Origin: a virus
Direction: 5' to 3' (one strand)
DNA: 54,917 bases
Virus record (IMG/VR): IMGVR_UViG_3300042402_002325
Coordinates: 1-54,917 of that record
Numbering within the stretch: the stretch's first letter is position 1; each line of letters opens with the position of its first letter. Made by a program: the position numbers and the translations under genes. Of the stretch, positions 5,270 to 54,382 are shown piece after piece. Under the pieces are notes generated by a model that ran no database searches, was not told where the DNA came from, and worked only from the letters and a program-made list of their open reading frames with translations.

Positions 5270-5470
5270 ATGGAGTCAACTAAAAAGAGCTCAATTAAAA
5301 CTTTAAGTTGGGAAACATTTCATCTTGTAGTTCTTGCTGGTATTGTATTTTTGTTTACTGGAGAATGGGAATATGCAACTCTAGGTGCACTAATGTATAT
5401 AGCATTTGAAGCTGCAGGATACTTTATACATGAAAGACTTTGGTCAAGGTTTGGAAATAAGATTAAATAA
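5270..5470 (+). CDS. DUF2061-type small membrane protein
   Basis: 66 residues, two hydrophobic helices and a YFIHERLWSRFG ending, which matches the HER.W signature of DUF2061 membrane proteins. It starts at the base after the endolysin stop. A paralogue lies at 7350. Function unknown. Confidence 0.75.
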   Translation: MESTKKSSIKTLSWETFHLVVLAGIVFLFTGEWEYATLGALMYIAFEAAGYFIHERLWSRFGNKIK

Positions 5471-6090
5471 TGATTTCACAAAGTGAACCAAAAATTTACC
5501 CAACATCAATGCCTGGAGCAGGAATTGCTATATACGAAAACGTATGGGAAAATCCTTTACAGTCTATTAAAGATATAGAGATGCTGTGCAGTAATGAAGG
5601 TTCAAACATTAGTTTTGTGAGTTCTGAAGTAATTGAAGACCCTAAAGACGAACAACATAGAAAAACTAAGTATAGAACAAGTAAAGAAATCAGCATATCT
5701 AGACACAAGGATAACAAGTATATTAAAGAGTTTGACGATAAATGTAATGCAGTTATTGATTTGTGCTTAGATTCATATAGACAGCAAATGATGATGGGGC
5801 AGGAACCCTATAATGCTGAGGGTTTTTATTTGTTAAAATACGATGTTGGTGATTATTTTAATTCACATTACGACACTCATCCAACATACAAAAGATCTGT
5901 GTCTGTTTTAATTTATCTCAATGATGATTATGAGGGTGGAGAAATAGAGTTTTTTCATTTTAATACAAAGATCAAACCTAAAGCAGGAACAGTAATCTTG
6001 TTTCCGCCCAACTATCCGTATAGACACATTGCTCATCCAGTTACTAGTGGAACAAAGTATGCAGTAGTAACTTGGTATCACGAAAGGTAG
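5470..6090 (+). CDS. Fe(II)/2-oxoglutarate-dependent oxygenase
   Basis: 206 residues. C-terminal double-stranded beta-helix of the prolyl 4-hydroxylase type: HYD (His133, Asp135), LIYLNDDYEGGE, PKAGTVILFP, distal His189 (HPVTSGTKY) and 2OG-binding Lys196. Start overlaps the previous stop (TAATG). One of eleven such proteins in the window and closest in style to those at 52270 and 53013. Confidence 0.9.
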   Translation: MISQSEPKIYPTSMPGAGIAIYENVWENPLQSIKDIEMLCSNEGSNISFVSSEVIEDPKDEQHRKTKYRTSKEISISRHKDNKYIKEFDDKCNAVIDLCLDSYRQQMMMGQEPYNAEGFYLLKYDVGDYFNSHYDTHPTYKRSVSVLIYLNDDYEGGEIEFFHFNTKIKPKAGTVILFPPNYPYRHIAHPVTSGTKYAVVTWYHER

Positions 6091-18686: not shown

Positions 18687-19256
18687 ATGAATACTATAGA
18701 ACACCATGAGGGTATCTATGAAATAAAAAACTTTATAGATAAAGATACAATAGATTTTTTATTGTCCAAGATAAATGTCAAAGACAACGAAGGCTGGCAT
18801 ACAGAAAGTCTTGGAAATAATGTTTTTTTTAGCTATGACGAAGACTTTGTATCTTGTGTTAATAAAATCAATAACAGTATAGTGGAATGTTTTAAAAATA
18901 TTTATGACTCTACTGGAATACAAAATATTAGAAGGCTAAAATCTGGAGAGTTTATGAACGCTCACTTTGATTCTGGAATGCCACCAAAAAAGACTAATCC
19001 AAGAGAAGATGATTTTACAGAATATGGTGCAGGAAATTATATTGTTTTTGGAATAGTCTTATACTTAAATGATGAATTTAAAGGTGGAGAAACATTTTAT
19101 CGTGATATAGACTTAAAAATAAAACCAACTGTTGGTTCTTTAATAATTCACAAATCAAACATATTGCATGAAGTATTAGAGATAAAAGATGGTGAAAGAT
19201 ATTCTATATCTTCATTTATAAAAGGAAACGAAGACACATCTTTTATTTTTAAATAA
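18687..19256 (+). CDS. Fe(II)/2OG oxygenase
   Basis: 189 residues. HFD (His93, Asp95), IVLYLNDEFKGGETFY, PTVGSLIIH, distal His161 and Arg171 (GERYSISSF). Embedded in the glycan region between two methyltransferase/glycosyltransferase groups. Its stop overlaps the opposing methyltransferase by 8 bases. Leaderless start at 18687. Confidence 0.88.
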   Translation: MNTIEHHEGIYEIKNFIDKDTIDFLLSKINVKDNEGWHTESLGNNVFFSYDEDFVSCVNKINNSIVECFKNIYDSTGIQNIRRLKSGEFMNAHFDSGMPPKKTNPREDDFTEYGAGNYIVFGIVLYLNDEFKGGETFYRDIDLKIKPTVGSLIIHKSNILHEVLEIKDGERYSISSFIKGNEDTSFIFK

Positions 19257-23641: not shown

Positions 23642-23647
23642 ATAGTA

Positions 23648-24380: not shown

Positions 24381-24386
24381 AAATAA

Positions 24387-24395
24387 AGTATATCA
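24387..24395 (-). promoter_or_regulatory. Extended -10 leaderless promoter for the 24380 gene
   Basis: Minus strand TGATATACT, 6 bases before ATG 24380. Confidence 0.75.
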
Positions 24396-24406
24396 GATAT
24401 ACAAGG

Positions 24407-25290: not shown

Positions 25291-25415
25291 TACGACACAA
25301 GACCCATAGATAGGTGATCTAAACAGACATCTGCCACTACATAGTCAGAGTGATCTACGACTACATCGTAATGCGTTGCGTCCTTTTCACAAAAAAAGCA
25401 TCTGGTTTTCTTCAT
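25290..25415 (-). CDS. 41-residue CxxC microprotein
   Basis: MKKTRCFFCEKDATHYDVVV... with CFFC and a later VCLDH: a possible C2-CH zinc site. Leaderless: minus strand TGGTATGAT lies 6 bases before ATG 25415. Coupled to the glycosyltransferase. Confidence 0.65.
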   Translation of the reverse strand: MKKTRCFFCEKDATHYDVVVDHSDYVVADVCLDHLSMGLVS

Positions 25416-25421
25416 ATATAT

Positions 25422-25430
25422 ATCATACCA
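25422..25430 (-). promoter_or_regulatory. Extended -10 leaderless promoter for the 25415 gene
   Basis: Minus strand TGGTATGAT, 6 bases before the ATG. Confidence 0.65.
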
Positions 25431-25440
25431 CAGACGAATA

Positions 25441-25449
25441 TGATATAAT
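25441..25449 (+). promoter_or_regulatory. Extended -10 promoter with leader and RBS
   Basis: TGATATAAT followed by a short leader with GGGGGCGG before ATG 25468; an example of a leadered gene among many leaderless ones. Confidence 0.7.
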
Positions 25450-25467
25450 GAATAATAAGGGGGCGGT

Positions 25468-26076
25468 ATGTTTTTTATTTATGATGATGACTTTTTAACA
25501 GAGGAAGAAATTCAGGCTGTGGAGACTAGGTTTTGGCACAGCAATATACCTTTTAGATTTGTAAAAAATGCTTCCCCAGTAGTCAAAGATAATACAGGTG
25601 TTGTTGACATAAAGATTCAAGATGTATCTTTTTTTACTGTTGAGGTTAGTCAAGATCAGCCAGAATCAAAGATATTTTTTGATATAATTAAAAAATTTAC
25701 AGAAAAACATGGTATTGAGTTTGAAGGATTTAGAAGGGTTAAGCTCAATATTATGACACCAACAGTTGAAAGATCACAAAAGACTTTGTATCCACATATA
25801 GATTATAACGAACCACACTATATTTTCTTATACTACCCTAGCGATTCTGATGGAGACACCATAATCTATAATGAAACCTACTCAGGTAATTTTGTTAAAG
25901 AGGCTACAATTAGCAAAAGAATTACACCAAAACGTGGAGCAGCATTTATTGTAGATGGTAGACACTTTCACTCAATTACAACCCCTTCGGAGCATGCTTT
26001 TCGTGGAGTAATAAATTCCAATTTAACAATAAATAGTTGGGATGCTTTAAAGTTCGGCGGCGACATAGAGGTATAA
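25468..26076 (+). CDS. Fe(II)/2OG oxygenase, divergent type
   Basis: 202 residues. HID (His110, Asp112), PKRGAAFIVDG, distal His168 (HFHSIT) and Arg179 (HAFRGVIN). Lacks the YLNDDYEGGE strand of the other copies (has DGDTIIYNE), so it belongs to a different subfamily. Confidence 0.82.
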   Translation: MFFIYDDDFLTEEEIQAVETRFWHSNIPFRFVKNASPVVKDNTGVVDIKIQDVSFFTVEVSQDQPESKIFFDIIKKFTEKHGIEFEGFRRVKLNIMTPTVERSQKTLYPHIDYNEPHYIFLYYPSDSDGDTIIYNETYSGNFVKEATISKRITPKRGAAFIVDGRHFHSITTPSEHAFRGVINSNLTINSWDALKFGGDIEV

Positions 26077-26086
26077 AACCATCTCA

Positions 26087-26101
26087 TGCTCCAAAGGAGC
26101 A
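26087..26101. terminator. Small hairpin between convergent genes
   Basis: TGCTCC-AAA-GGAGCA, six pairs, without a U tract; weak candidate for bidirectional 3'-end formation. Confidence 0.3.
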
Positions 26102-26599
26102 CTATTGGTTATCATCCTGCATTGGCGATGTACCCAATATGGTGGCATTCTTAATAACATTACATCTTCCGTGAGAAGGTCTGACATTTTCAATAGTATC
26201 TGCACCACCCCTAGATATAGGATGAACATGGTCTATATGTAAACCCTTTTCCCAGCCAGGATCACCACATTTTCTGGGGGAATTCAAATCAATATCTTCA
26301 TTACATATATGACATATAGCCCCATAAAGATCTAAAACATCTTGGTCTGTGTAGTATCCATAGTCAACACCTACTTTTCTAGCCCTAGTTCTTCTGCTTT
26401 GATAAGTGTATTGGTGTTTCTTTCTACTAATCTTTCTTAAACTATTTATAGTGTCTTTTCTAATGATGCGTTCATTTCTCCAATAAGCTCTTTCAGCATC
26501 AGTACATGGCTGGCATGGCTCTTGCTTCATGTCTCGTCTGTGCCAGTCATAGCCAGAGCGTGTACCATGTGCTGGTTCTTGCTTATGCCTTAGAGACAC
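26102..26599 (-). CDS. HNH endonuclease with N-terminal Cys/His module
   Basis: 165 residues from GTG 26599. Residues 9-34 (AHGTRSGYDWHRRDMKQEPCQPC) match a Cys/His module common in actinobacterial HNH and regulatory proteins; residues 96-160 hold the HNH core CHICN, LHIDHVHPISRGGADTIENVRPSHGRCN. GTG 26599 has GGAAGGA upstream and slightly overlaps the 26583 gene; the frame is open back to GTG 26668. Confidence 0.78.
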   Translation of the reverse strand: MSLRHKQEPAHGTRSGYDWHRRDMKQEPCQPCTDAERAYWRNERIIRKDTINSLRKISRKKHQYTYQSRRTRARKVGVDYGYYTDQDVLDLYGAICHICNEDIDLNSPRKCGDPGWEKGLHIDHVHPISRGGADTIENVRPSHGRCNVIKNATILGTSPMQDDNQ

Positions 26600-26693
26600 A
26601 CCAAATCCTTCCATCTGACATGGTTTGATGAGTTTCCCAGAACAGTGGATCTTTGTATGACAAACCACATTTTTGGCATTCGTTTTTCTTCAT
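26583..26693 (-). CDS. 36-residue zinc-finger microprotein
   Basis: MKKNECQKCGLSYKDPLFWE... CxxC near the start, one late Cys and a His (THQ). Leaderless: minus strand TGAGACAAT ends 6 bases before ATG 26693. It overlaps the HNH gene in another frame and may be its coupled leader cistron. Confidence 0.55.
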   Translation of the reverse strand: MKKNECQKCGLSYKDPLFWETHQTMSDGRIWCVSKA

Positions 26694-26699
26694 ATACTT

Positions 26700-26708
26700 A
26701 TTGTCTCA
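26700..26708 (-). promoter_or_regulatory. Weak extended -10 leaderless promoter for the 26693 gene
   Basis: Minus strand TGAGACAAT, 6 bases before the ATG. Confidence 0.5.
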
Positions 26709-26739
26709 GAAAAAGCTAGATAAGTCAAGCAAAACCAGA

Positions 26740-27531
26740 TCATCCATATTTTTTATTATATTGTTTAACAAAGTCAATTATCTTATATTTTTCATGATCA
26801 TGGTCAGCCTTGAATTTACCATGTGTAAAAAGAACGATGTCATTTATTCCAGATTCTTTAAGATTGTTTATGGTTAAGTTTAGCTCATCTGTTGTTGTAA
26901 ACATGATGTCCTGGGGTATCCTGTCTAAACCTTTTAAGTAAGATAAGAATTCTTCATCATCTTCAATAACTGGGCATATTGATACAATTCTTGGCTTGCT
27001 CATTTGCCTAAAACCATCAAACTTTTTGTATGGCTCAAAGCCAACTATATTATAGTCTGCATGCTGCTCAACCAAGGAGAATACTTCCTCTGTCATTCCA
27101 GTTATACATAGCTTGGTTTTGACTCCTCTTTTATCACAAAAGTCATTGAATATAGGTAGGTACTTAGCCATATACTCTTTCCTGTCTTTAAAAGACCTTT
27201 CAAACTCTTCTGGGAACATTGACCCACCAAGGGCTAGCTCCTTTTCTATAATAAAACCTGCAACAAAGTTGATCCAAACTCTGTCTGGCTGGATATCATT
27301 GAGAGACTTAATTATCATGGCCAGGTACTGTGGAGATACAGTATGAGGCCTTACTCCAACAATATACTTTAGCTTTTGGTTAATATCCAGAGCCCTTGCT
27401 ATCTTTATAAAATGACTATTTGAACCAACACCATAGGGTATTAGCATTGCATAAAACCCAGCATCCTCTAACTCTTTTGAGATAACATCTGTAGGGGCAG
27501 TTTCTACTTGATCAAAGAAATAAAAGTTCAT
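26740..27531 (-). CDS. LLM TIM-barrel protein, copy 3
   Basis: 263 residues. LKYIVGVRPHTVSPQYLAMIIKSLNDIQPDRVWINFVAGF is the same signature as copies 1 and 2; LALGGSMFPEEFERSFKDRKEYM follows. ATG 27531 lies 6 bases after TATAAT (minus strand), which rules out the ATG at 27549. Confidence 0.82.
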   Translation of the reverse strand: MNFYFFDQVETAPTDVISKELEDAGFYAMLIPYGVGSNSHFIKIARALDINQKLKYIVGVRPHTVSPQYLAMIIKSLNDIQPDRVWINFVAGFIIEKELALGGSMFPEEFERSFKDRKEYMAKYLPIFNDFCDKRGVKTKLCITGMTEEVFSLVEQHADYNIVGFEPYKKFDGFRQMSKPRIVSICPVIEDDEEFLSYLKGLDRIPQDIMFTTTDELNLTINNLKESGINDIVLFTHGKFKADHDHEKYKIIDFVKQYNKKYG

Positions 27532-27537
27532 GCTTTC

Positions 27538-27543
27538 ATTATA
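27538..27543 (-). promoter_or_regulatory. Leaderless -10 for the 27531 gene
   Basis: Minus strand TATAAT, 6 bases before ATG 27531. Confidence 0.7.
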
Positions 27544-27628
27544 CATCACTTAAAATTTCGGGGAACTTAAAAGAGGCATCGTAATCCCTATAGTAAATAA
27601 CCCCTATATACCTTATAGCCAGATAGGA

Positions 27629-27637
27629 TGATATACT
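27629..27637 (+). promoter_or_regulatory. Extended -10 leaderless promoter for the 27644 gene
   Basis: TGATATACT, 6 bases before the GTG start at 27644. Confidence 0.72.
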
Positions 27638-27643
27638 AAGCCT

Positions 27644-27964
27644 GTGGAGAATATAAACAATATACCTGGAATATGCGAGAAAGAGTGCAGTTGTTGTCCA
27701 AATAGACCACCAGTAAAGCCAACTCCTGCTACATGTACAGGCAGTGGATCAATAGGGCATGAGGAGTGGGAGTATGAAGCAGTAGGCTTTTCTCCATGTG
27801 CAAAGTATGTAGCCCATGCACGAAGTAACCCCTGTGATTTTATTAATAATATGCCTGTTGTAGAGGTTTCTAAAGATCCTCATAAATGTGAATGTGCTAC
27901 AAGCTTTTGTCCATGTGGTGAGTTTTTATCACATTTAATCTCTGAGCCATGCACTGCTAAATAG
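27644..27964 (+). CDS. Cys-rich protein with internal repeat
   Basis: 106 residues, 13 Cys. N-terminal CEKECSCCPNRPP; then two related units, SPCAKYVAHARSNPC and CPCGEFLSHLISEPC, each with C-x3-(Y/L) and a closing PC. No signal peptide, so metal binding is likelier than disulfides. GTG start, leaderless. No family recognised. Confidence 0.7.
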   Translation: MENINNIPGICEKECSCCPNRPPVKPTPATCTGSGSIGHEEWEYEAVGFSPCAKYVAHARSNPCDFINNMPVVEVSKDPHKCECATSFCPCGEFLSHLISEPCTAK

Positions 27965-27983
27965 CCAAAAGAGTGTACCGTTT

Positions 27984-28640
27984 TTAAAAATACGATAGGT
28001 TGTATTTATCAACAAAATCTGTATACTTGATATCTTGACCACAGTTGTCAATGAGGAAGTCTGCAGTAAACCCTGTTTTAAACTCTTGAGTATGCCAAGC
28101 TGAAGTAAACTCATAAGATACTTTATTGGACTTCTCAACTTCATCAATAAACCAATCAAATGTATGCTTTTCGTAGATAGGTACCGCCTTCTTATAAGCA
28201 TCAATTGCATACTGCTCACCAGCTTTTATTATATTTTTCATTATTTCTGATTTTGGTTTGACAGCGTAATTAGCATTGTTTGTGCCCCATCCCCCATTAT
28301 GACTAGATGGGACAACTAATATATCACAGTCTTTTACGCCTTGTAATAAGTAATCAAGAGGTTTTACACATACAGAATCCATGTCTGCGTACACTCCTCC
28401 ATGCTCATAGGTAACTATGTATCTCCATATGTCTGATTGTGTGACTGGCTCTTGTATCAGATAGGACTGCGATAAAATATCATATGACTTGATTGACTCT
28501 AATCTTTCATGATGATTTAAGTACCTATAATCCCATCCAGGGTTAAGGTTTTTCCAGGTTTGTGCTGTCTGCTTAAGATGGATAGGCAGTTCGTCAAATT
28601 CATAGTTATGTGTTTGCCATATGATCTTTGGTACCTGCAT
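27984..28640 (-). CDS. GT32-like (OCH1-type) glycosyltransferase, copy 1
   Basis: 218 residues. VPKIIWQTH, TWKNLNPGWDYRYL, QSDIWRYIVTYEHGGVYADMDSVC (DxD) are hallmarks of Gly_transf_sug transferases. Paralogue at 42979. Leaderless start behind TGATATACT. Confidence 0.88.
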   Translation of the reverse strand: MQVPKIIWQTHNYEFDELPIHLKQTAQTWKNLNPGWDYRYLNHHERLESIKSYDILSQSYLIQEPVTQSDIWRYIVTYEHGGVYADMDSVCVKPLDYLLQGVKDCDILVVPSSHNGGWGTNNANYAVKPKSEIMKNIIKAGEQYAIDAYKKAVPIYEKHTFDWFIDEVEKSNKVSYEFTSAWHTQEFKTGFTADFLIDNCGQDIKYTDFVDKYNLSYF

Positions 28641-43969: not shown

Positions 43970-44371
43970 ATGTGCACCCCAGCAATAGAAAAATTAGGAG
44001 CAACTCCAGCTCACATACAGTGGACAGTTGTTCGTGGAGATTCATCAAGCCTAGCTGTTCAATTTCTTGAAGATGATGAATCCACTGGCTGGGACATAGA
44101 GGATTGGGACTTTGCAGCAACTGCCTATGACGTATCTGGTGATTTTCTTGATGAGCTAGCAGTCAATATCTCTGGTCATACCGTAACAATTTTTGCATCA
44201 GCAGATCTTACAAAAAACTGGGGAACAAAATATACTTCAATAGTATCTGAATTACCATTTGACCTACAGGCAACCATACCCGCTGGAGAAGATGATATAG
44301 AACCAACTGTTTGGACTCCAGTACTTGGAACAATTTGTGTTCTGGGTGACATAACCCCTGGAGGTTTATAA
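43970..44371 (+). CDS. BppU-like phage structural protein
   Basis: 133 residues. IQWTVVRGDSSSLAVQFLEDD and the following beta strands (ATAYDVSGDFL, VNISGHTVTIF) match the N-terminal fold of BppU-type and actinophage minor tail proteins that attach fibres to the baseplate. Confidence 0.68.
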   Translation: MCTPAIEKLGATPAHIQWTVVRGDSSSLAVQFLEDDESTGWDIEDWDFAATAYDVSGDFLDELAVNISGHTVTIFASADLTKNWGTKYTSIVSELPFDLQATIPAGEDDIEPTVWTPVLGTICVLGDITPGGL

Positions 44372-44466: not shown

Positions 44467-45186
44467 ATGTCAACTAGCATGGATTTTCCAGGTAAGTCTA
44501 AAAAATATTCAGATAATGTAAACAACTCTTATCAACTTGAGCAGTCAGTTTCTTTTATAGCTGTACCTGGACCACAAGGAGAGCAGGGCCCAAAGGGTGA
44601 TAAAGGCGATTCTGGACCAGAAGGTAAACAAGGACCACAGGGAGAGCCTGGAAAACCTGGTAAAGATGGAAAAAACGGTAGGGATGGAATAGCAGGAGAA
44701 AGCAGCTTGTCTCCATCAGGTCAAAGAACTGGTTGGGCTCTTTATACAAATAAAGATCAAAAAGATATTACTCTTGGTGCAACAAAAGGAAATGATGGCT
44801 GGGTTAGCTTTAGCTTTGATTGTAGGGGCAAGAACAATGAACTTTATTTACCCGAAAATAACGTTTCGTTATATAATTCACAATCACAAAAAATCAACCT
44901 TAAAGCACTAAAGGTGGGATCAATTGTAACAGTACGTTATGATATTATTCTAACTACCCTTACCAACAACACTGAGGTTTGGTTTAGAACCTATATACCA
45001 GAGTCTGATTTTTGGCCTACTACCTTTGCTGGAAACCTAAAATATCAGTTCTCATACGACATGTCACTAGAGCACACCTTTTTTATAGAAAATGACATGG
45101 TTAGAAACTATGGTGGGTTGCCACAAATATTGACAGATAATGATGCTTCAATGGTTGCCAAATCTATTTATATATCTGTTAGGTAA
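44467..45186 (+). CDS. Collagen-like tail fibre protein
   Basis: 239 residues. About 15 Gly-X-Y triplets at residues 35-79 (GPQGEQGPKGDKGDSG..), including Y-position prolines (GEP, GKP), then a beta-rich C-terminal domain (ITLGATKGNDGWVSFSF ... MVAKSIYISVR) probably trimeric. Typical of phage fibres. Y-position prolines are the classic target of prolyl 4-hydroxylases, and eight 2OG oxygenases lie downstream. Confidence 0.88.
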   Translation: MSTSMDFPGKSKKYSDNVNNSYQLEQSVSFIAVPGPQGEQGPKGDKGDSGPEGKQGPQGEPGKPGKDGKNGRDGIAGESSLSPSGQRTGWALYTNKDQKDITLGATKGNDGWVSFSFDCRGKNNELYLPENNVSLYNSQSQKINLKALKVGSIVTVRYDIILTTLTNNTEVWFRTYIPESDFWPTTFAGNLKYQFSYDMSLEHTFFIENDMVRNYGGLPQILTDNDASMVAKSIYISVR

Positions 45187-45226: not shown

Positions 45227-46303
45227 ATGAGTCCTAAAAAGCCTGGTGTCGTAGAAGCGCAAAGTAAGTCAGCACCACTACCACCAACCATTGGGACCGC
45301 TACAGATGTTGGCGGAAATCTAGCTTACAATGCTGGACAAGTATCAGTAACTTTTACAGCACCAACATTTAATGGTAAGCTTCCAATAACTACCTATACA
45401 GTTACTTCATCACCTGGTGGATTTACTAACACAGGATCATCTTCACCAATTGTTGTTGCAGGATTAAATACAGCACCTTCATCCTCTTACACATTTACTG
45501 TTACCGCAACAAATGCAGCAGGAACTTCATCTGCATCAGCTGCATCAAACGCAGTTGCACCAACATCAGTGCCACAAGCTCCAACAATTGGAACAGCATC
45601 TGGAGGAACTTCTGGAGTTGTCTCTGTTCCATTTACAGCTAACAATAATGGAAATAAATCAGTAACAATATTTACAGCAACATCAACTTCTGGGCGTACA
45701 GCAACAAGCGCATCATCTCCTATTGCATTTACAGAAGTAGCAGCAGGAACTTATACATATACTGTTACCGCAACAAATGCAAATGGAACATCTCTTGCAT
45801 CTGCAGCGTCTAATCCTGTTGTTTCTACTTTTGGTCCATTCTTTCCTCCATTCTTTCCATTCTTCCCTCCATTTTTTCCTCCGTTCTTCCCACCATTCTT
45901 TCCACCATTCTTCCCACCGTTCTTCCCACCATTTTTCCCACCGTTCTTCCCATTCTTCCCTCCTTTCTTCCCTCCTTTCTTCCCACCATTCTTCCCGCCA
46001 TTCTTCCCTCCATTCTTCCCGTTCTTCCCTCCTTTCTTCCCACCGTTCTTCCCTCCATTCTTTCCGTTCTTCCCTCCTTTCTTCCCACCTTTCTTCCCTC
46101 CATTCTTCCCATTCTTCCCTCCTTTCTTCCCATTCTTCCCACCGTTCTTCCCATTCTTCCCACCGTTCTTCCCGTTCTTCCCGTTCTTCCCATCATTTGC
46201 ACCACTACCTCCATTCTTCCCACCGTTCTTCCCGTTCTTCCCAGGATTCGTTGGACCGTTCTTCCCAGGATTCGGATCACCAGGTGGAGGATTCTTCGTC
46301 TAA
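45227..46303 (+). CDS. FN3-domain tail protein with long FFPP repeat
   Basis: 358 residues. Two fibronectin type III-like domains (about 19-112 and 113-202, each closing with YTFTVTATNAAGTS / YTYTVTATNANGTS), then residues 203-330 made almost only of Phe and Pro (units PFFPPFF and PFFPFF), ending in a Gly/Phe tail. FN3 domains are common on phage tails; the aromatic-proline repeat is very unusual and could form a polyproline-II rod or a sticky surface. Leaderless start. Confidence 0.82.
   Translation: MSPKKPGVVEAQSKSAPLPPTIGTATDVGGNLAYNAGQVSVTFTAPTFNGKLPITTYTVTSSPGGFTNTGSSSPIVVAGLNTAPSSSYTFTVTATNAAGTSSASAASNAVAPTSVPQAPTIGTASGGTSGVVSVPFTANNNGNKSVTIFTATSTSGRTATSASSPIAFTEVAAGTYTYTVTATNANGTSLASAASNPVVSTFGPFFPPFFPFFPPFFPPFFPPFFPPFFPPFFPPFFPPFFPFFPPFFPPFFPPFFPPFFPPFFPFFPPFFPPFFPPFFPFFPPFFPPFFPPFFPFFPPFFPFFPPFFPFFPPFFPFFPFFPSFAPLPPFFPPFFPFFPGFVGPFFPGFGSPGGGFFV
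45833..46250 (+). repeat. Polypyrimidine CCATTCTTCCC-type tandem repeat
   Basis: The plus strand is about 95% C/T, in units of TTCTTCCC(A/G/T)CC. It encodes the FFPP repeat. Long polypyrimidine strand asymmetry can slip in replication or form triplex DNA. Confidence 0.85.
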
Positions 46304-46315
46304 GAGATAAAAATT

Positions 46316-46419: not shown

Positions 46420-47133
46420 ATGTATGAACAAGATGAAAATAAAAATCCTTGGTTTACTAAAGACAGGTCAGAAACTGTTTCTAATCGTGTAGCAGAAAGA
46501 TTTTTAGATAATGGAATCTCTGTTGAAAATTTAGCTTTAGGTCTACACATGTATAAAAATACATTTTCTTTAGATGATGCTAACAGATACATTAACACTT
46601 TAGAGTCAAACCTTGGAAATGATAAAGTTTATAATTGGTCAGATGCTACAGTTACAAATTCTCCAAACCCAATTAAAAAAGCAAGAGACTGCGTTGATTT
46701 TAAGTACAAGCAAGAAAATTTAGGACCACGAAATAGCGACAATGAGCATCTACTAGATCTACATGAAGAGATATATCAAAAACTAAAATACTGTATAGAT
46801 GACTATGCTAAATACTGGGGAATAAGTGTAGTGTATTATGAGGCATTTAACTTTGTAAAATATGAAGGTGTAGGAACACACTTTAATATTCATGCTGATC
46901 ACGGTCCAGCATATAATTGCACCGTTTCTGCTGTAATATATATAAATGATGACTATGTTGGAGGAGATCTAAAGTTTCCAAGATTAGACAACTTAGTCTA
47001 TAAACCAAAAGTTGGAGACATTGCAATTTTTCCATCTAACTACATATACGAGCATGCCTCTCTGCCTATGGAGTCAGGAACAAAATATTGTGTTGTTGTT
47101 ATGACAGATATAAATGAACTAGGGCACAAGTAA
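46420..47133 (+). CDS. Fe(II)/2OG oxygenase, array copy 1
   Basis: 237 residues. HAD (His158, Asp160), VIYINDDYVGGDLKF, KVGDIAIFP, distal His212, Lys222 (GTKYCVVV). Start at MYEQDEN after GGGGGG; the upstream part of the open frame contains the promoter. First of the array and most like copy 2 (47921). Confidence 0.9.
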   Translation: MYEQDENKNPWFTKDRSETVSNRVAERFLDNGISVENLALGLHMYKNTFSLDDANRYINTLESNLGNDKVYNWSDATVTNSPNPIKKARDCVDFKYKQENLGPRNSDNEHLLDLHEEIYQKLKYCIDDYAKYWGISVVYYEAFNFVKYEGVGTHFNIHADHGPAYNCTVSAVIYINDDYVGGDLKFPRLDNLVYKPKVGDIAIFPSNYIYEHASLPMESGTKYCVVVMTDINELGHK

Positions 47134-47138
47134 AATCT

Positions 47139-47909
47139 ATGAATTCACAAAATGTAGTTTTTAGATCTTTTAGGCCATGGCTAAACAAAGATAGCAAGTC
47201 TGTTCCTTCACCAACACAGGATACGATTCCAGAATGGTATAAAAAAGCAGATAGATTTGCAAAAAAAGTTAATGGTGAATACTACGAAGCATCAGCACAA
47301 GTTTGCCCTTTTCCAAAAGAAGGTACAACCAGCGATTATGGAAAAATTCCAACATGGAAAGCTTGCCCAGCAATTATGGATGCTTTTTCAACAGGCTATG
47401 TTTTAAAAACTCCATGTGATATTACTTTTTTTAAAAATGCGTATGGAATAATAGACGTTAAAATTGATGATCAAAAACACAAAGATTTTTGTACGCAAAG
47501 ATCAGAAATGGCACAATTTGAACAACCAAAGGGCTATCATAAAACTCATTTTGCCTGGTTTTCTGATTGGGGATTACAGTTACCAGATGGATATAGTGCT
47601 CTATTCATGCAACCAATGAATAGGTTTGATTTACCTTTTTTAAATACTACAGGGGTTGTTGATAGTGATAAAGTTCATCAGCTTGGAACTTTTCCATTTT
47701 TTTTAATTAAGGATTGGGAAGGAACTATTCCAGCAGGAACACCGTATATGCAGATATTGCCATTTAAAAGAGAAAACTGGGATCATCAGTTAGAAATATT
47801 AGACTCAGAAACAATATACAAAGAAAGAACCGAAAATGTAAAACTTTTCCGCCAACCAGACGGCGGTATTTATAAAAATAAAGTTTGGTCTAGAAGAGAA
47901 TACAAATAA
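47139..47909 (+). CDS. Cupin-like protein of oxygenase arrays (DUF6065-like?)
   Basis: 256 residues. DTIPEWYKKADRF, MDAFSTGYVLKTPCD, FAWFSDWGLQLPDGYSALFMQP, DLPFLNTTGVVDSDKV, IPAGTPYMQILPFKRENW. A beta-sandwich family I have seen beside 2OG oxygenases in aquatic phages; the DUF number is uncertain. No catalytic motif; may bind substrate peptides. Confidence 0.6.
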   Translation: MNSQNVVFRSFRPWLNKDSKSVPSPTQDTIPEWYKKADRFAKKVNGEYYEASAQVCPFPKEGTTSDYGKIPTWKACPAIMDAFSTGYVLKTPCDITFFKNAYGIIDVKIDDQKHKDFCTQRSEMAQFEQPKGYHKTHFAWFSDWGLQLPDGYSALFMQPMNRFDLPFLNTTGVVDSDKVHQLGTFPFFLIKDWEGTIPAGTPYMQILPFKRENWDHQLEILDSETIYKERTENVKLFRQPDGGIYKNKVWSRREYK

Positions 47910-47920
47910 AAGGGGTAATA

Positions 47921-48577
47921 ATGAAAACTTGGACAGATAAGATAGACTACGGCAATGGAATCATTTGCTATAAAAATGTAATAAAGGATGAAATTAAAGT
48001 AATTGAAAGAATTGAGGCAAACTTAAAGCCAGAAGGTGACACAACTGGCTATCACTGGTATCCAGCATATGTTGGCTATAAGCAATTAATGCCAGAGTAT
48101 AGAGATTGCAATGACTTTAAGTTTAAAAAAACAGACATTGAAAACGACACTAGCGAAACATCATTAAACCTTCAATCTTTATGGCAAGATGTTTATGATG
48201 CACAGTTTCCAGCAGTTGAAGATTATAGACAACAGTTTAACATTATGAATTTAAAGTACTGGGAAGCATTTAACTTCATTAAATATGGTCCAGGACAACA
48301 CTTTCAAGAGCATCATGATCATGGGTTTTCTTATAACTGTACAGTATCTTTAGTTGCATATGTTAACGATGACTATGATGGCGGAGAGCTGTACTTTAGA
48401 CTACAGAACCTTACAGTTAAGCCAGAAGCTGGAGATCTTTTTATTTTCCCTTCAAACTTTATGTATCCTCATAGAGCTATGCCAGTACATGCTGGTACAA
48501 AATACTCTATCGTAACTATGCTTGATTATAACAAAAAGTTCCATACACCAGAAATGTATGTTGCAGAGGAAGAATAA
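47921..48577 (+). CDS. Fe(II)/2OG oxygenase, array copy 2
   Basis: 218 residues. HHD (His131, Asp133), VAYVNDDYDGGELYF, EAGDLFIFP, His184, Lys194. AAAGGGG RBS. Shares KYWEAFNFIKYGPGQHF with copy 1 (YEAFNFVKYEGVGTHF), so these two are sister genes. Confidence 0.9.
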   Translation: MKTWTDKIDYGNGIICYKNVIKDEIKVIERIEANLKPEGDTTGYHWYPAYVGYKQLMPEYRDCNDFKFKKTDIENDTSETSLNLQSLWQDVYDAQFPAVEDYRQQFNIMNLKYWEAFNFIKYGPGQHFQEHHDHGFSYNCTVSLVAYVNDDYDGGELYFRLQNLTVKPEAGDLFIFPSNFMYPHRAMPVHAGTKYSIVTMLDYNKKFHTPEMYVAEEE

Positions 48578-49305
48578 TGTTAAATATATCTGTTGAAAGA
48601 TCTTTAGATTCAAAGATTATAATCTCTCCAATGTCAATAAAACGAGATTGGATGGATGTGACTCCAGAAAAACATGCTTATAGGTGTTTTCCAGTTACAC
48701 AGGCAAATATGATTGGTTGGAATCTTTCATGTACAGATGATATTGTTTTTATTTGGAATGGAATTAATGACACAAGCTCTGATAACGTTACTATTTTGCA
48801 AGGATCAGATATAACCTATACTGGCAGAGGTCAATCTACTGTAAGCTTCCACACAGGACTAACTTTTAGAACTGAAAAAGATGTTAGTATGTTTACTATT
48901 AATCCAGTAAACTATTTTAATGAAGATTTTGAAACAATGTCTTCCTTAATAAGCACTTCATGGCTAGATACTGCATTTCCTTTAGCAATTAAAGCAAGGT
49001 CAGCTAATAAAGAAATAACAATAAAAGCTGGAACCCCTTTGGCCACTATAGTTCCAGTTTCTTTATCTGCTATGGATAATAGCGTTATTGAAATTTTTGA
49101 CTATTCAGATCCAGATCGTAAAAGACAGATGGCACATCAATCATATGGTGAAGCTGCACAAGAAATTAATAAATCAGGTAAGTGGACTGATTGGTATAGG
49201 GACGCAATAAATGAAAAAGGTGAGAGTGTTGGCTCTCATGAAACCAAGGTTTTGCGTCTTTCTGTTAAGGACAACACAAAAGAAAAAGGAAATGGTATAA
49301 TCTAA
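48577..49305 (+). CDS. Cupin-like array protein, second copy
   Basis: 242 residues. CFPVTQANMIGWNLSCTDDIVFIWNG, STVSFHTGLTFRTEKDVSMFTINP, IKAGTPLATIVPV: same overall layout as 47139. TAATG overlap with the oxygenase before it. Confidence 0.6.
   Translation: MLNISVERSLDSKIIISPMSIKRDWMDVTPEKHAYRCFPVTQANMIGWNLSCTDDIVFIWNGINDTSSDNVTILQGSDITYTGRGQSTVSFHTGLTFRTEKDVSMFTINPVNYFNEDFETMSSLISTSWLDTAFPLAIKARSANKEITIKAGTPLATIVPVSLSAMDNSVIEIFDYSDPDRKRQMAHQSYGEAAQEINKSGKWTDWYRDAINEKGESVGSHETKVLRLSVKDNTKEKGNGII
49293..49301 (+). promoter_or_regulatory. Extended -10 leaderless promoter inside the array
   Basis: TGGTATAAT at the end of the 48577 gene, 6 bases before ATG 49308. The array thus has an internal promoter. 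Confidence 0.7.
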
Positions 49306-49307
49306 TT

Positions 49308-49982
49308 ATGGACAATATAAACGCTTCTGTTGTAGTTAGAAAGCCTTCATTAACACCTTCTGGTTGGTTTGGCAGTGGAAAAGAAATGATTGTAGAGCTT
49401 GAAAATTTTATGACTCAAGAAGAAATGGACTTTTTAGAAAAGGCTGCAAAGTCTTTAACAATTTGGGATGTTACAGAAAGCCATGTCAATGAAAACGGAA
49501 CAGTTGTTTATGACTCAGAGTACTGGAAAGATAGGGTTGCAACACAACCAAGCTTAGACAAAAATGACCCAAAAATATCACCAGTTATTGCGGGATTATT
49601 TCAAAGACTTAAGCCAATTGTAGAAGAATTTTATAAAGTTAAAGTAACTCCAACTGGAACTACTATTGTTAAATGGCTTCCAGGACAATTTCAAAAACCT
49701 CATGCTGACAAAGAGTTGCATGAAGGGCCAGATGCTGGATTGCCAAATGATTTTCCAAACTACGATCTTTCAAGCCTTTTCTATTTAAACGAAGATTACG
49801 AAGGTGGCGAATTATATTTCCCAAACCAAGGAGTTCAGTTTAAGCCAAAGAAAGGTGCTGCTTACTTTTTTCCAGGTGACATGAATTACATTCACGGAGT
49901 AACAGAGATTAAAAGTGGACTTAGGTTTACTTGCCCATTTTTTTGGGAAATTACAGAGCACACAGGGGACAGGAAACCGTAA
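49308..49982 (+). CDS. Fe(II)/2OG oxygenase, array copy 3
   Basis: 224 residues. HAD (His132, Asp134), LFYLNEDYEGGELYFP, KKGAAYFFPG, His196, Arg206 (GLRFTCPFFW). Prolyl-hydroxylase-like subgroup with Arg instead of Lys. Confidence 0.9.
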   Translation: MDNINASVVVRKPSLTPSGWFGSGKEMIVELENFMTQEEMDFLEKAAKSLTIWDVTESHVNENGTVVYDSEYWKDRVATQPSLDKNDPKISPVIAGLFQRLKPIVEEFYKVKVTPTGTTIVKWLPGQFQKPHADKELHEGPDAGLPNDFPNYDLSSLFYLNEDYEGGELYFPNQGVQFKPKKGAAYFFPGDMNYIHGVTEIKSGLRFTCPFFWEITEHTGDRKP

Positions 49983-50855
49983 ATGGAAAAACAAAACCTT
50001 GAGCCAATAGAGATTTATCCCAATATTCTTGTCTATAAAAACATGTTTAGGGATATTCAGAAGTCTTACAAAATTTTAACAGACTCATTGGTAGAGTCAG
50101 AAGATAGACTTTTTAGTCCATGGACCAAGTGGTCTCATTTTGGAGAATATTTAAGTCCAATATTCCCTTCTTTTAATCAGATGATGCCTTATGCCAATAT
50201 AAAAGAGCTTCAGCCAACAACAATAACTCAAAAAGAACAACAAGACTTTTTTATAGAAATGCTAGACAACTTTTTTCTAGTTACAGAAGACTATATTAAC
50301 AGAAATAACATAGAGGTAGACAAAGATGCAATCTCTATAGATGAACAAGGATATACAACTCCAACATGGCAATGGTCAGGTGGATCAATAGGAAAATATC
50401 ACGTAAGCGATAGTAATCAAAAAGTTGGAATGAACTATCATTCAGACTATACTAGAGAGCAAAGAGATGCTCCAGGATATAAGTTTGTAATCACCTGTAC
50501 AATTTATTTTAATGATGATTATGAAGGCGGAGAAGTTGACTTTGTAATGGGAGACAAACTTGTAAAATATAAGCCAGAAGCAGGAGATATGTTGGTGTTT
50601 CCATCAGGCCACCCAGACTATTTAACAGAAGATGGAAAGCCTTATCTTCATGGTGTAATGCCAGCTTATAATAAAAATAAATTTTTAGCAAGAATGTACT
50701 GGCAAAAATATGAAAAAGGATCCGACGAGTGGTATGAAAAAGAAAAACAATTTGGTAAAGAGGTTTGGGCAGAAATGCAACCCGAATTACACAAACAGTT
50801 TAGACTAGATCATCCACAAAGAGACGTTATAGAAAATGGAGTAAGATTACAATGA
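49983..50855 (+). CDS. Fe(II)/2OG oxygenase, array copy 4
   Basis: 290 residues, longest copy. HSD (His153, Asp155), IYFNDDYEGGEVDF, EAGDMLVFPSG, His223 (LHGVMP), Lys233 and a charged C-terminal extension. Starts one base after the previous stop. Confidence 0.9.
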   Translation: MEKQNLEPIEIYPNILVYKNMFRDIQKSYKILTDSLVESEDRLFSPWTKWSHFGEYLSPIFPSFNQMMPYANIKELQPTTITQKEQQDFFIEMLDNFFLVTEDYINRNNIEVDKDAISIDEQGYTTPTWQWSGGSIGKYHVSDSNQKVGMNYHSDYTREQRDAPGYKFVITCTIYFNDDYEGGEVDFVMGDKLVKYKPEAGDMLVFPSGHPDYLTEDGKPYLHGVMPAYNKNKFLARMYWQKYEKGSDEWYEKEKQFGKEVWAEMQPELHKQFRLDHPQRDVIENGVRLQ

Positions 50856-51598
50856 ATCTAAATAATAAAACTAGAATAACAAAAGATATCGTTATCTATG
50901 AAGATTTTATTACTAGTGAAGAGTGTAAAAAAATGATTCAAGCCCTAGATGCTCAAGCAGATAACGGAGCGCTTTCTTGGATGCCTATATCATTCTATGA
51001 ATCATACTCTTCTGTTCTACCACAAGATAATGATCAAGAAGTACTTGATGCTGGATTGCCTCCAACTATTTTTTCAGACATTGAAGCAAAAATGCCAGAG
51101 GCAATAGCATCAGTTCATGATCTTGATCCAAAAACAATTTCTAAAATTGGATACCACACCCAAAAATGGGAGCCAGGAGCATATGCAAGAATTCATTCAG
51201 ACAATACTGATGAACACGGAAACTCTGGAGCATTTACAAGAAGCAGATATGCAGGATTCTTATATTTAAACGATGATTTTACAGGTGGGCTTTTGAGGTT
51301 CCCAGATCAGAACATAGAGATTCAACCAAAAGTTGGAATGCTTGCTGTTTTTGACGGGGGATTTAATAATATGCACGAAGTATCTTTAATAGAAAGTGGA
51401 GTAAGATATACAATTGGATCTTTTTGGGATGATAGAGAAGAAGATGCTTATCCTCAAGAAGTTAGAGATGCTTGGGCAGAAGAAATGAAAGAAACCAGAG
51501 CCAAGCAAGAAATTGAAAGAGCAGAATGGCAAGAACTTCTAAAGCAGGGCTGGAAGCTTGATAAAGACGGAAACAAATATAAGGCAGAAGAATTATAA
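50852..51598 (+). CDS. Fe(II)/2OG oxygenase, array copy 5
   Basis: 248 residues. HSD (His115, Asp117), FLYLNDDFTGGLLRFP, KVGMLAVFDG, His175, Arg185, then a Glu/Lys-rich helical tail (residues 205-248). ATGA overlap with copy 4. Confidence 0.9.
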   Translation: MNLNNKTRITKDIVIYEDFITSEECKKMIQALDAQADNGALSWMPISFYESYSSVLPQDNDQEVLDAGLPPTIFSDIEAKMPEAIASVHDLDPKTISKIGYHTQKWEPGAYARIHSDNTDEHGNSGAFTRSRYAGFLYLNDDFTGGLLRFPDQNIEIQPKVGMLAVFDGGFNNMHEVSLIESGVRYTIGSFWDDREEDAYPQEVRDAWAEEMKETRAKQEIERAEWQELLKQGWKLDKDGNKYKAEEL

Positions 51599-51600
51599 AA

Positions 51601-52260
51601 ATGGCTAATTTTTTAGAAAAAGAATTAAAGGAAAATAACTTTAATGTAAAAGAAATAGTACCTGACCTTTTATTAATTGAAGACTATTTACACAAAGAGG
51701 AGCTAGACTACATCCTTGATCTTATAAACAAAACACCAGAGGATGATTGGTATATTGAGTATTTGTCTAATTTAAAAAGATTTTGTTTAGAAAAGTTTGG
51801 AAGAAGCGATGTTGATAATCTGGTTGCTGAAGGAAAATTTGAAATAACACAGGGCTGGGAAGATAAAAACTTAAACATATCTTCAGATCCAATATATAAA
51901 ACAATATATACTAGACTTGACAAACTTGTTTTAGAAGCAGATAATTCTTTAAATTTAAGCGGTTTTGCAACTATACAAAGAATGCAAACAGGAGTTGAGC
52001 TAAAATCACATACAGATCAACATACAGATCCATCAATCAAGTATGCTGCTATTTTATATCTAAATGATGACTATGTAAACGGAGAGCTTTTCTTTAAAAA
52101 TAAAGATATTTCTTTAAGACCAAAACCAGGATCGCTTTTAATTTTTCCAGGAAATGAAGAGTTTGAGCACGGAGTTAAACATGTTGGAGAAGGTCCAATA
52201 AGGTATGTTTTGGTTGGTTTTATTAAGATAACAGATTTTTATGAAAATAATAAATACTAA
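51601..52260 (+). CDS. Fe(II)/2OG oxygenase, array copy 6
   Basis: 219 residues. HTD (His137, Asp139), ILYLNDDYVNGELFF, KPGSLLIFPG, His190, Arg201 (IRYVLVGF). Confidence 0.9.
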   Translation: MANFLEKELKENNFNVKEIVPDLLLIEDYLHKEELDYILDLINKTPEDDWYIEYLSNLKRFCLEKFGRSDVDNLVAEGKFEITQGWEDKNLNISSDPIYKTIYTRLDKLVLEADNSLNLSGFATIQRMQTGVELKSHTDQHTDPSIKYAAILYLNDDYVNGELFFKNKDISLRPKPGSLLIFPGNEEFEHGVKHVGEGPIRYVLVGFIKITDFYENNKY

Positions 52261-52269
52261 GGAGAAAAG

Positions 52270-53013
52270 ATGAATGTAGAAAAGCTAGACCCAAAGGTTT
52301 ATTACTATACAGATGCAATAGAGAATTTTGAAACCTTTCAAAAAACACTTAAAGATCTTGACGAACTTGGCACACCAGAAGACTCAGAGGTTAATCTTTG
52401 GAATAGCTGGACATCATCTAACGATAAAACTTTTATATATGGAGAAACCAAAACATTTGACTTAAATCAAATAAGCAGAATAGATGGTGAAGTAGCTGAA
52501 AAAAGCAAATACGTATATGATGCAATAATGAAAACTCTATATGATGTATGTAAAGACTACGCATCCTCTCTTGGTGATTTTGATGAACCTAGACTGTTCC
52601 CAACTTTTAATATTAAAAAATACAATACTGGTATGGCCATGGGCGCACACTTTGATCAGTTAGACGGTGATCAAACATTAAGATATTCTTTGGTGATGTA
52701 CTTAAACGATGACTGTGAAGGTGGAGAAATATCATTCCAGCTAAAAGACTATGACGGAGGATGGAATAGCTCAGAAGGATGGGTTAGCGGTGCCCCTCAT
52801 GTAGACCTAGACTATGATGTTGCTGTTGCCAACAAAGCAATAGATTTTGGAGTAAAGCCTAAAGCAAATAGCGTAATTATATTTCCAGCATATGCACCAT
52901 ACTTTCATACAGCGCATACCGTAAAGTCTGGTGTAAAGTACATGGTTCCTGGACACTGGATACATAACCACATGGACATGTATCCTCAAAAATCTAACAT
53001 GGGAGTAATGTAA
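52270..53013 (+). CDS. Fe(II)/2OG oxygenase, array copy 7
   Basis: 247 residues. HFD (His127, Asp129), VMYLNDDCEGGEISF, KANSVIIFPA, His216 (HTAHTVKSG), Lys223. Very similar to copy 8, a recent duplication. An insert at about 160-195 lies in the jelly-roll loop. Confidence 0.91.
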   Translation: MNVEKLDPKVYYYTDAIENFETFQKTLKDLDELGTPEDSEVNLWNSWTSSNDKTFIYGETKTFDLNQISRIDGEVAEKSKYVYDAIMKTLYDVCKDYASSLGDFDEPRLFPTFNIKKYNTGMAMGAHFDQLDGDQTLRYSLVMYLNDDCEGGEISFQLKDYDGGWNSSEGWVSGAPHVDLDYDVAVANKAIDFGVKPKANSVIIFPAYAPYFHTAHTVKSGVKYMVPGHWIHNHMDMYPQKSNMGVM

Positions 53014-53717
53014 TGCAAAGAGAAATACTTGAAGAAAACATATATTATTATAAAAATGCAATCCCAGATCCAAAAAAGTTTATAGAGATCATTGAGTCCA
53101 CTGAGAATGAAGACTTTGGAACTTCTTTAACTAAGTGGAATGAGTGGACAGCCTGTAGTGGAGAAATGTATCTATATGGTTCTCAAAAAACTATTGAGCC
53201 ATCTGATTTTGAAAAAACGGCAGATAAAGATAGCAACCCTGTTAGTTATATATATAACACAATTACTGACTTATTTTACAATGTCTGTAAAGACTATGCA
53301 GTATCAAAAGGAGACATGGAGGAGCCAATGATTCTTCCAGCTTTTGACATTAAAAAGTACAGCGCTGGAACTTTTATGGGTGCACACTTTGACCAACAAG
53401 AAGGCGACACTAGACTTAGATACTCCTTAGTTATTTATTTAAATGATGATTATGAGGGTGGAGAGTTGTCCTTTACAATAGAATCTCCAGATGCTCCAAT
53501 TATTCAGGGTAAGCCAGAAGAAGACTATGATGTATCAAAAGACTCAGATAGAATAACAATAGGAATTAAACCAGAGGCTGGAAGCGTAATTATATTCCCA
53601 TCCTCTCCTCCTTATCATCATACAGCACACCTTGTAAAAAGTGGTTTTAAGTACATGATCCCTATGCACTGGTATAACGATTTATCTGGCGGTACACAGC
53701 CTACGGACAATAGATGA
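53013..53717 (+). CDS. Fe(II)/2OG oxygenase, array copy 8
   Basis: 234 residues. HFD (His125, Asp127), VIYLNDDYEGGELSF, EAGSVIIFPS, His206 (HTAHLVKSG), Lys213. Shares KDYA, MGAHFDQ and LRYSLV with copy 7. Stop/start overlaps on both sides (TAATG, ATGA). Confidence 0.91.
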   Translation: MQREILEENIYYYKNAIPDPKKFIEIIESTENEDFGTSLTKWNEWTACSGEMYLYGSQKTIEPSDFEKTADKDSNPVSYIYNTITDLFYNVCKDYAVSKGDMEEPMILPAFDIKKYSAGTFMGAHFDQQEGDTRLRYSLVIYLNDDYEGGELSFTIESPDAPIIQGKPEEDYDVSKDSDRITIGIKPEAGSVIIFPSSPPYHHTAHLVKSGFKYMIPMHWYNDLSGGTQPTDNR

Positions 53718-54382
53718 AAACAGCTATAGTAACGGGGGCTAGCAAGGGCGTTGGCTATGCTACAGTAAAACTTCTTTCTGAGAGTGGCTACAAGGTAATA
53801 GCTGTCTCTAGAAACCTTTCTAAGGTCAATGAGCTTGTATCAGATAATGTTGAAACATATAAGATGGATATTACAAATCCTAATGAAATTAAAGCATTTT
53901 TTGAAAAATATAAAGACATTACACTTGATCTTTTAGTAAACAACGCAGGCGGTGGATCAGGTCCAACAATGCTTATTAATGAAACAATGGATAACTTTAG
54001 AATAGCATACGAAATAAATGTATCTGGACCAATGTATCTATCTCAGCTTTTTGTTCCATGTATGCAAAGGTCTGATTCTCCAACAATAATATTTGTCAGC
54101 TCTTTAGGAGGAAAAGTTCCATATCGCAGCGGTGGAAATTATATTAATGCCAAAAGAGGCATGATGGCTTTAGTTGATACAATGAGGCTAGAGTTCCCTG
54201 CATACGGAATTAAGGTTACTGAAATATGCCCAGGAACAATTGACACACAAGTAGAAAAACGTGACATAGCATTAACTGCTGAAGATCTTGCGGAGTCTAT
54301 TAGATGGGTTTCAGAGTTGCCAAGCCATTTTAATATAAATCATATTGAAATGAATCATATTAGCAGTAGTAAGTTTGGGTAA
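53714..54382 (+). CDS. Short-chain dehydrogenase/reductase (SDR)
   Basis: 222 residues. TGASKGVG (7-14), NNAGG (76-80), Ser129/130, Y143-x3-K147, PGTIDTQV: full classical SDR with NAD(P) site. Overlaps copy 8 (ATGA), so it ends the array operon. It could further oxidise or reduce a hydroxylated product. Confidence 0.92.
   Translation: MKTAIVTGASKGVGYATVKLLSESGYKVIAVSRNLSKVNELVSDNVETYKMDITNPNEIKAFFEKYKDITLDLLVNNAGGGSGPTMLINETMDNFRIAYEINVSGPMYLSQLFVPCMQRSDSPTIIFVSSLGGKVPYRSGGNYINAKRGMMALVDTMRLEFPAYGIKVTEICPGTIDTQVEKRDIALTAEDLAESIRWVSELPSHFNINHIEMNHISSSKFG

Follow-up and report, generated by a model that had tools for sequence, protein, structure and literature searches.

Why would a phage carry eight adjacent genes for one type of oxygenase, and on what would the enzymes act? 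The question is raised by the IMG/VR virus record IMGVR_UViG_3300042402_002325, a 54,917-base stretch that is probably an incomplete piece of a virus genome and that we analysed whole (the window). At 46420-54382 it holds eleven genes on a single strand, with an intergenic spacing of -4 to +11 bp, in the order A1, C1, A2, C2, A3, A4, A5, A6, A7, A8 and a short-chain dehydrogenase/reductase (SDR) gene. The A genes, eight Fe(II)/2-oxoglutarate (2OG) oxygenase genes of family PF13640, form one operon-like block. Its 5' neighbours encode a protein with an fn3 domain and a repeat of FFPP and FFP units (45227, the FFPP protein) and a collagen-like protein (44467). We put at roughly 0.6 the probability that the block is a module for post-translational modification, dedicated to hydroxylating the FFPP protein, a tail-region protein, most likely on proline.

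Gene block and oxygenase active sites

The proposed substrate gene and the block are laid out as follows, with oxygenases resembling prolyl 4-hydroxylases described as P4H-like.

45227..46303, + strand: fn3 and (FFPP/FFP)n repeat protein, proposed substrate (PF00041 E 1.4e-5; repeat composition)
46420..47133, + strand: A1, P4H-like Fe(II)/2OG oxygenase (PF13640 E 9.3e-10; HxD/H/K)
47139..47909, + strand: C1, DUF6065/phrog_7084 family protein (phrog_7084 E 1.9e-36)
47921..48577, + strand: A2, P4H-like Fe(II)/2OG oxygenase (PF13640 E 5.5e-15; orthologues in a second lineage)
48577..49305, + strand: C2, DUF6065 protein with a dUTPase-like predicted fold (PF19541 E 1.5e-31; phrog_7084 E 1.2e-9; model pLDDT 94.1)
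49308..49982, + strand: A3, P4H-like Fe(II)/2OG oxygenase (PF13640 E 3.5e-9; model pLDDT 92.7)
49983..50855, + strand: A4, P4H-like Fe(II)/2OG oxygenase (PF13640 E 3.3e-9)
50852..51598, + strand: A5, P4H-like Fe(II)/2OG oxygenase (PF13640 E 3.8e-8)
51601..52260, + strand: A6, P4H-like Fe(II)/2OG oxygenase (PF13640 E 8.3e-12)
52270..53013, + strand: A7, P4H-like Fe(II)/2OG oxygenase (PF13640 E 4.5e-9)
53013..53717, + strand: A8, P4H-like Fe(II)/2OG oxygenase (PF13640 E 3.1e-11)
53714..54382, + strand: SDR oxidoreductase, often but not always the last gene of the block (PF00106 E 6.5e-41)

Membership of PF13640 (2OG-FeII_Oxy_3) was taken as a profile match above the curated Pfam cut-off, which all eight array genes exceed (8/8, E 3.8e-8 to 5.5e-15). 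Alignment of the window copies showed the HxD, the distal His and the Lys/Arg intact in all eight, as a preliminary description of this DNA had claimed. Over all loci the full set of Fe and 2OG residues was present in 832 of 840 oxygenases, the exceptions being mostly cut by contig ends.

The constant partner of the array

The Phe/Pro repeat protein that the preliminary description placed 5' of the array is indeed there: an N-terminal fn3 domain is joined to a 138-residue repeat containing 72 Phe and 62 Pro. We scanned IMG/VR with the A8 protein and took the best 80 loci of 203 confirmed relatives. Their gene order (FFPP protein, A1, C1, A2, C2, A3, A4, A5, A6, sometimes A7, A8 and often the SDR) is strongly conserved, with some losses, insertions and local reorderings.

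A further scan was blind to the oxygenases and sought IMG/VR DNA able to encode FFPPFFPPFFP. It gave at least 120 matches; from the first 80 of those listed we took, as the test set, every record of 25 kb or more (37). PF13640 was found in 35 of these 37 FFPP-encoding records, most of them with 6-11 copies, and DUF6065 in 30. In a control of 29 records of at least 20 kb, drawn from IMG/VR with a random 14-base motif, only three carried PF13640, with 1-3 copies each. The pairing also holds in the other direction: of the array-bearing records that reach 20 kb, 24/25 contain FFPP-coding DNA, against 0/29 in the control; the sole array-bearing record without it is a 20-kb fragment. The two kinds of gene usually adjoin: where 3 kb of sequence follows the FFPP gene (75 cases), that interval includes an oxygenase or DUF6065 gene in 64. 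In relatives L024 and L026 FFPP is absent beside the array, yet is encoded elsewhere on the same contig. FFPP was not found in the marine single-cell viruses that have A3 relatives.

The collagen-like protein was the other candidate of the preliminary description, which saw it as a fibre with Gly-X-Pro triplets. It is preceded by a small conserved gene.

43970..44371, + strand: small protein of unknown function, 5' of the collagen-like gene and kept in near relatives (phrog_1084 E 4.6e-5)
44467..45186, + strand: collagen-like protein with 15 Gly-X-Y triplets, an optional neighbour (PF01391 E 1.4e-8)

The collagen stretch is real, but just two of its 15 triplets are Gly-X-Pro, with four Gly-Pro-X. 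A collagen-like gene lies over the cut-off in 19 of the 39 records examined. Loss of the fibre genes from phages that keep the array, which the preliminary description had named as evidence against its idea, is thus seen for the collagen-like gene and not for the FFPP gene. As FFPP accompanies the array in 24/25 records and the collagen-like gene in 19/39, the array's constant partner is the FFPP protein and not the collagen-like protein. The latter may serve some phages as a second substrate, but with its gene in 19/39 records and only two Gly-X-Pro triplets in the window it cannot be the constant one.

These counts also bear on the idea that the array hydroxylates other virion proteins, such as the collagen-like protein or a tail fibre, with FFPP as a neighbour, scaffold or co-structural partner. 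The collagen-like gene upstream, with its counterparts in about half the records, would fit this, as would the tail-fibre genes that adjoin the FFPP gene in L041 and G020. However, half of the records have no collagen-like gene while FFPP is nearly constant, Pro occupies the Y position in only 2/15 of the window's triplets, and FFPP is the component common to unrelated backbones (see below). We therefore regard this explanation as unlikely.

A pairing shared by unrelated phages

The relatives L024 and L041 match Streptomyces phages of the Stanwilliamsviridae, at 63% identity for the capsid protein and about 54% for the head protease. G071, with an array that is close kin of the window's, has a capsid protein 43% identical to that of L024. 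The Stanwilliamsviridae-like backbone is read from these relatives, the window being a fragment without an identified head gene. In two sequenced isolates of the Stanwilliamsviridae the genes for ribonucleotide reductase and portal are arranged correspondingly, and neither PF13640 nor FFPP is present.

G020 (105 kb) has the tail sheath phrog_23 and a portal protein 43% identical to those of Brevibacterium and Gordonia phages, and no Stanwilliamsviridae-like capsid protein. In its genome a tail fibre, FFPP, three oxygenases and DUF6065 stand in a row. G013 (88 kb) has a different tail sheath, phrog_2839, with a single PF13640 gene about 5 kb past the FFPP gene and two DUF6065 genes within about 6 kb. 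The FFPP/oxygenase pairing is present in at least three unrelated backbones and because of this is best seen as a mobile functional module. Isolates resembling the first two backbones infect Actinobacteria, which suggests that the hosts of these uncultured phages are actinobacterial.

The spread of the pairing also matters for a role outside the virion, where the target would be the host or a small molecule: a surface glycan, a secondary metabolite, 2OG/nitrogen signalling or DNA repair. Proposals of this kind have been made for cyanophages, covering DNA repair (PMC2984593), 2OG/nitrogen stress (PMC3037559) and a secondary metabolite or capsule (PMC7824862), and genes for glycosyltransferases and FkbM methyltransferases are numerous in the window. 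Such a role predicts neither a tight FFPP pairing in unrelated phages nor a block placed in the tail-fibre region, and we consider it decidedly unlikely.

Family and fold of the oxygenases

The window copies are only 14-44% identical pairwise, which excludes recent tandem duplication. That origin was considered and dropped, as most copies also fall in orthologue groups common to several phages. In a tree of 128 oxygenases A5, A6 and A7 each form a single well-supported clade, and A1, A2, A3, A4 and A8 nearly do so; A2 and A3 relatives are present in a second phage lineage too. That separate orthologues have been long preserved suggests that they have distinct roles.

The model of A3 (pLDDT 92.7) has a double-stranded beta-helix fold like that of known prolyl hydroxylases, a result for a single predicted copy. 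Its top Foldseek match is the collagen prolyl hydroxylase of PBCV-1, vCPH (5c5t, E 7e-10). VIA-align 2 gave Z 16.5 with P3H1 (root-mean-square deviation (rmsd) 4.7, 185 aligned), 16.4 with PHD2 (rmsd 3.1, 164 aligned) and 15.6 with vCPH (rmsd 3.1, 163 aligned), scores that are to be read as tied. A3 is thus predicted to fold like protein prolyl hydroxylases; a common fold does not prove its substrate.

The preliminary description counted three further copies elsewhere in the window. Two stand, with PF13640 above the cut-off, and the third is weak, as profile searching gave it matches to phrog_274 and phrog_61 only and no Pfam match.

5470..6090, + strand: B1, stand-alone P4H-like oxygenase (PF13640 E 1.2e-16)
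18687..19256, + strand: B2, stand-alone P4H-like oxygenase whose frame opens at 18555 (PF13640 E 4.9e-8)
25468..26076, + strand: B3, weak diverged oxygenase-like protein (phrog_274 E 1.8e-25, phrog_61 E 0.0013)

B1 is the nearest to solved prolyl 4-hydroxylases among the copies tested, phmmer finding the Bacillus anthracis P4H (E 9e-9) and the PBCV-1 P4H (E 1.4e-6). The PHROG families phrog_274 ('DNA endonuclease V'), phrog_2297 ('DNA endonuclease') and phrog_3531 ('ferrochelatase') were also hit by clear 2OG oxygenases, so for proteins of this type the labels probably mislead.

DUF6065 proteins and the SDR

The two genes interleaved with the first oxygenases, C1 and C2, had been described as cupin-like. 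Neither has a cupin entry in its Pfam match list, which does not exclude a cupin, and the C2 model matches dUTPases instead: its top 40 Foldseek matches are all dUTPases (E <= 0.001, about 1e-4), and VIA-align 2 superposes it on them with Z about 11 over 114-127 residues at 8-14% identity. A VVDSD stretch resembling dUTPase motif 3 is in C1 and not in C2, as judged by eye and with no formal motif scoring. C2 had no match in the cultured-phage collection. We infer that DUF6065 is an accessory protein of the module. The SDR is at the block's end, as previously described, and its gene is missing in L041, L056 and other relatives.

Two alignments of DUF6065 proved too diverse to scan genomes with, and a narrower one gave nine loci. 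Three of these are phage-like contigs with the array (L333, L335 and L338); the remaining loci have a lone DUF6065 with no 2OG gene adjoining, and their bacterial context gave no function. The three array-bearing contigs, with oxygenase/DUF6065 arrays, are binned in bacterial metagenome-assembled genomes of Chitinophagaceae, Verrucomicrobiales and Gammaproteobacteria, likely through binning errors. In the Hafunaviridae HRTV-17 and HF2 (L089, L090) DUF6065/phrog_7084 lies between the tail-fibre module and a class II ribonucleotide reductase, and neither genome has a PF13640 gene.

The dUTPase-like predicted fold is one point in favour of DNA base hypermodification, in which the oxygenases would oxidise thymine or 5-methylcytosine as Tet/JBP enzymes do, DUF6065 would be a nucleotide enzyme and glycosyltransferases would decorate the bases. 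A3 has a weak Tet_JBP match (1.7e-4), the protein at 13830 a weak match to a TET-associated glycosyltransferase (TAGT; 7.2e-5, below the cut-off), and a ribonucleotide reductase follows the block in L041 and neighbours DUF6065 in viruses of the HF2 type. However, among 16 large FFPP records none has a C5 DNA methylase (PF00145; the records may be incomplete) and none has Tet_JBP above the cut-off, and the top structural matches of the A3 model are protein prolyl hydroxylases. The reductase's nearness to the block reflects backbone synteny, as it lies about 45 kb from the array in G020 and sequenced relatives carry it at the same place without the array. Hypermodification also leaves the FFPP pairing unexplained, and we judge it very improbable.

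How the module might work

The preliminary description proposed that the phage hydroxylates its own fibres, and hydroxylation of a fibre by the phage itself is the best reading of the comparative evidence. The pairing of FFPP with oxygenases is near-exceptionless, adjoining and found in unrelated backbones, and the enzymes are prolyl-hydroxylase-like. The idea is in part borne out, and the FFPP protein emerges as the likely substrate.

We infer that FFPP is the substrate and proline the residue modified, that the paralogues divide the labour and that the product is located on the tail. P4H-like oxygenases, with DUF6065 accessories, would hydroxylate the Phe-Pro repeat of the protein encoded just upstream, whose gene appears to sit in the tail-fibre region of the genome. 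Proline would be the likeliest target residue because about 44% of the repeat is Pro and because the enzymes come closest, in fold and sequence, to protein prolyl hydroxylases. The paralogues might split the work by position (either of the two prolines in FFPP, or the single one in FFP), by chemistry (3- or 4-hydroxylation) or by residue (Phe/Tyr). Hydroxylation could make the Phe-Pro rod stiffer, more soluble and hydrogen-bonding. The new hydroxyls could, speculatively, bear sugars; glycosyltransferases occur in the window. It is a more tentative suggestion, with the odds somewhat against it, that these phages own a mobile system without a described counterpart: non-redundant oxygenases and a dUTPase-fold accessory would turn a Phe-Pro polymer, genetically encoded and borne on the tail, into a fibre that is hydroxylated and perhaps glycosylated. 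This hydroxyproline-rich material, made by the phage, would serve receptor binding, as a spacer or for protection.

Several points weigh against hydroxylation of FFPP. Co-occurrence does not identify a substrate, and P4H-like enzymes act on other substrates too. PBCV-1 encodes a P4H, yet no hydroxyproline was detected in its virions (PMC7019647). Two FFPP records, G005 and G034, are without PF13640, both being fragments of 37-38 kb. Fisher tests gave p = 7e-13 for PF13640 in FFPP records among the matches listed (35/37 vs 3/29) and 2e-14 for FFPP in array-bearing records (24/25 vs 0/29), but IMG/VR records are interrelated and the control was not matched for habitat, so these values overstate independence and the effect size counts for more. 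Haloarchaeal viruses and bacterial chromosomes (alphaproteobacterial contigs) have DUF6065 in the absence of 2OG oxygenases, and neither DUF6065 nor the SDR has a clear role in the hydroxylation scheme.

Properties of the Phe-Pro repeat

Over 127 distinct repeat domains Phe accounts for 47% of the residues, Pro for 44% and Tyr for 3%; FFPP, FFP, YFPP or YFP make up about 89% of the units. The repeat is often near the C-terminus, after fn3-like domains, and in L041 and G020 the FFPP gene follows a tail-fibre gene. Its Pro codons are CCA (58%), CCG (27%), CCT (14%) and CCC (2%). That the codons vary while the residues stay points to selection acting on the protein sequence. In the window (45227-46303) and in the FFPP genes of L009-L212 codon use in the repeats is inverted relative to the rest of the window: Phe is TTC in 89% of cases (all loci) against 14%, and Pro is CCG in 27% against 3%. 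Avoidance of T-runs, which are subject to slippage, or unit-wise expansion of the DNA are possible causes. Long open reading frames overlap the FFPP gene in other frames (45777-46310, + strand; 45825-46280, - strand); they are by-products of the stop-free repeat and not likely to be genes.

There is no Lys or Arg in the FFPP repeats of the window and of the relatives read, so trypsin would not cut inside them and routine proteomics would tend to miss a modification. In L048 (2-742), L099, L122 and L201 a Hint/intein-like domain follows the repeat of the FFPP protein (for L048, PF13403 at 5.5e-5, below the cut-off), and about 39 of the 127 distinct FFPP proteins have Cys-rich tails. C-terminal autoprocessing or cross-linking is possible for such tails. 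The FFPP protein had no match in the cultured-phage collection, a search limited by low-complexity filtering.

Comparison with known systems

The collagen lysyl hydroxylase/glycosyltransferase of Mimivirus is an example of a virus modifying its own repetitive structural protein by 2OG hydroxylation. That enzyme is bifunctional and lysyl and acts on collagen, whereas here single-domain P4H-like enzymes accompany a Phe-Pro repeat. The hydroxyproline-rich glycoproteins of plants (extensins, arabinogalactan proteins) have Ser-Pro or Ala-Pro repeats, in contrast to the Phe-Phe-Pro(-Pro) repeat of these phages, for which glycosylation is only speculative. Plant P4H paralogues hydroxylate Pro-rich proteins, which then bear sugars (PMC7960765).

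The PBCV-1 vCPH, matched by A3 in Foldseek and by B1 in phmmer, is also a viral P4H-like enzyme with an intact Fe/2OG site. It is one enzyme of an algal virus, with an unknown role and no virion hydroxyproline (PMC7019647), while the bacteriophages described here line up as many as eight paralogues, or more, next to a single conserved Phe-Pro repeat protein. Cyanophage 2OG-Fe(II) oxygenases belong to the same PF13640/phrog_61 families, often with several per genome (PMC3037559), and structural likeness to EGLN3 has been reported (PMC12774648). The cyanophage copies inspected (Sf-CH3, S-SCSM2R) differ in being scattered or near replication genes, and a pairing with FFPP was not found in the literature consulted. 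The open-licence literature gave nothing relevant on FFPP repeats, phage protein hydroxylation or phage oxygenase arrays with a Phe-Pro protein. Neither the type of enzyme nor the notion that viruses hydroxylate proline is new; what is new, as far as we have checked, is the grouping of several enzymes in one module, its likely substrate and its movement between phages.

2OG-Fe(II) oxygenases are common in aquatic phages, and published ideas on what they act in range from DNA repair (PMC2984593) to nitrogen signalling (PMC3037559). For many of these enzymes the FFPP pairing now points to a definite substrate that can be tested. If the proposal is right, phages own a dedicated set of enzymes, exchanged horizontally, for extensive hydroxylation of structural proteins, and such enzymes might be used to produce hydroxylated Phe-Pro polymers.

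Other features of the window

Promoter and terminator scans gave numbers at chance level. A motif, TATGGTAYAAT, 5' of both 43970 and 45227 was considered as a shared promoter and rejected, with six occurrences in the window against 4.3 expected by chance; it is not general, being upstream of 4/25 FFPP genes and 1/34 A1 genes. A cluster of glycosyltransferase and FkbM-like methyltransferase genes spans 13830-28640, and a PstS-like phosphate-binding protein is encoded at 22137. The window also has a glutathione-peroxidase-like gene (PF00255) at 3483-4283; others lie beside the oxygenase/FFPP blocks of L119 (8184-9119), L335 and L338, the last two spotted by eye.

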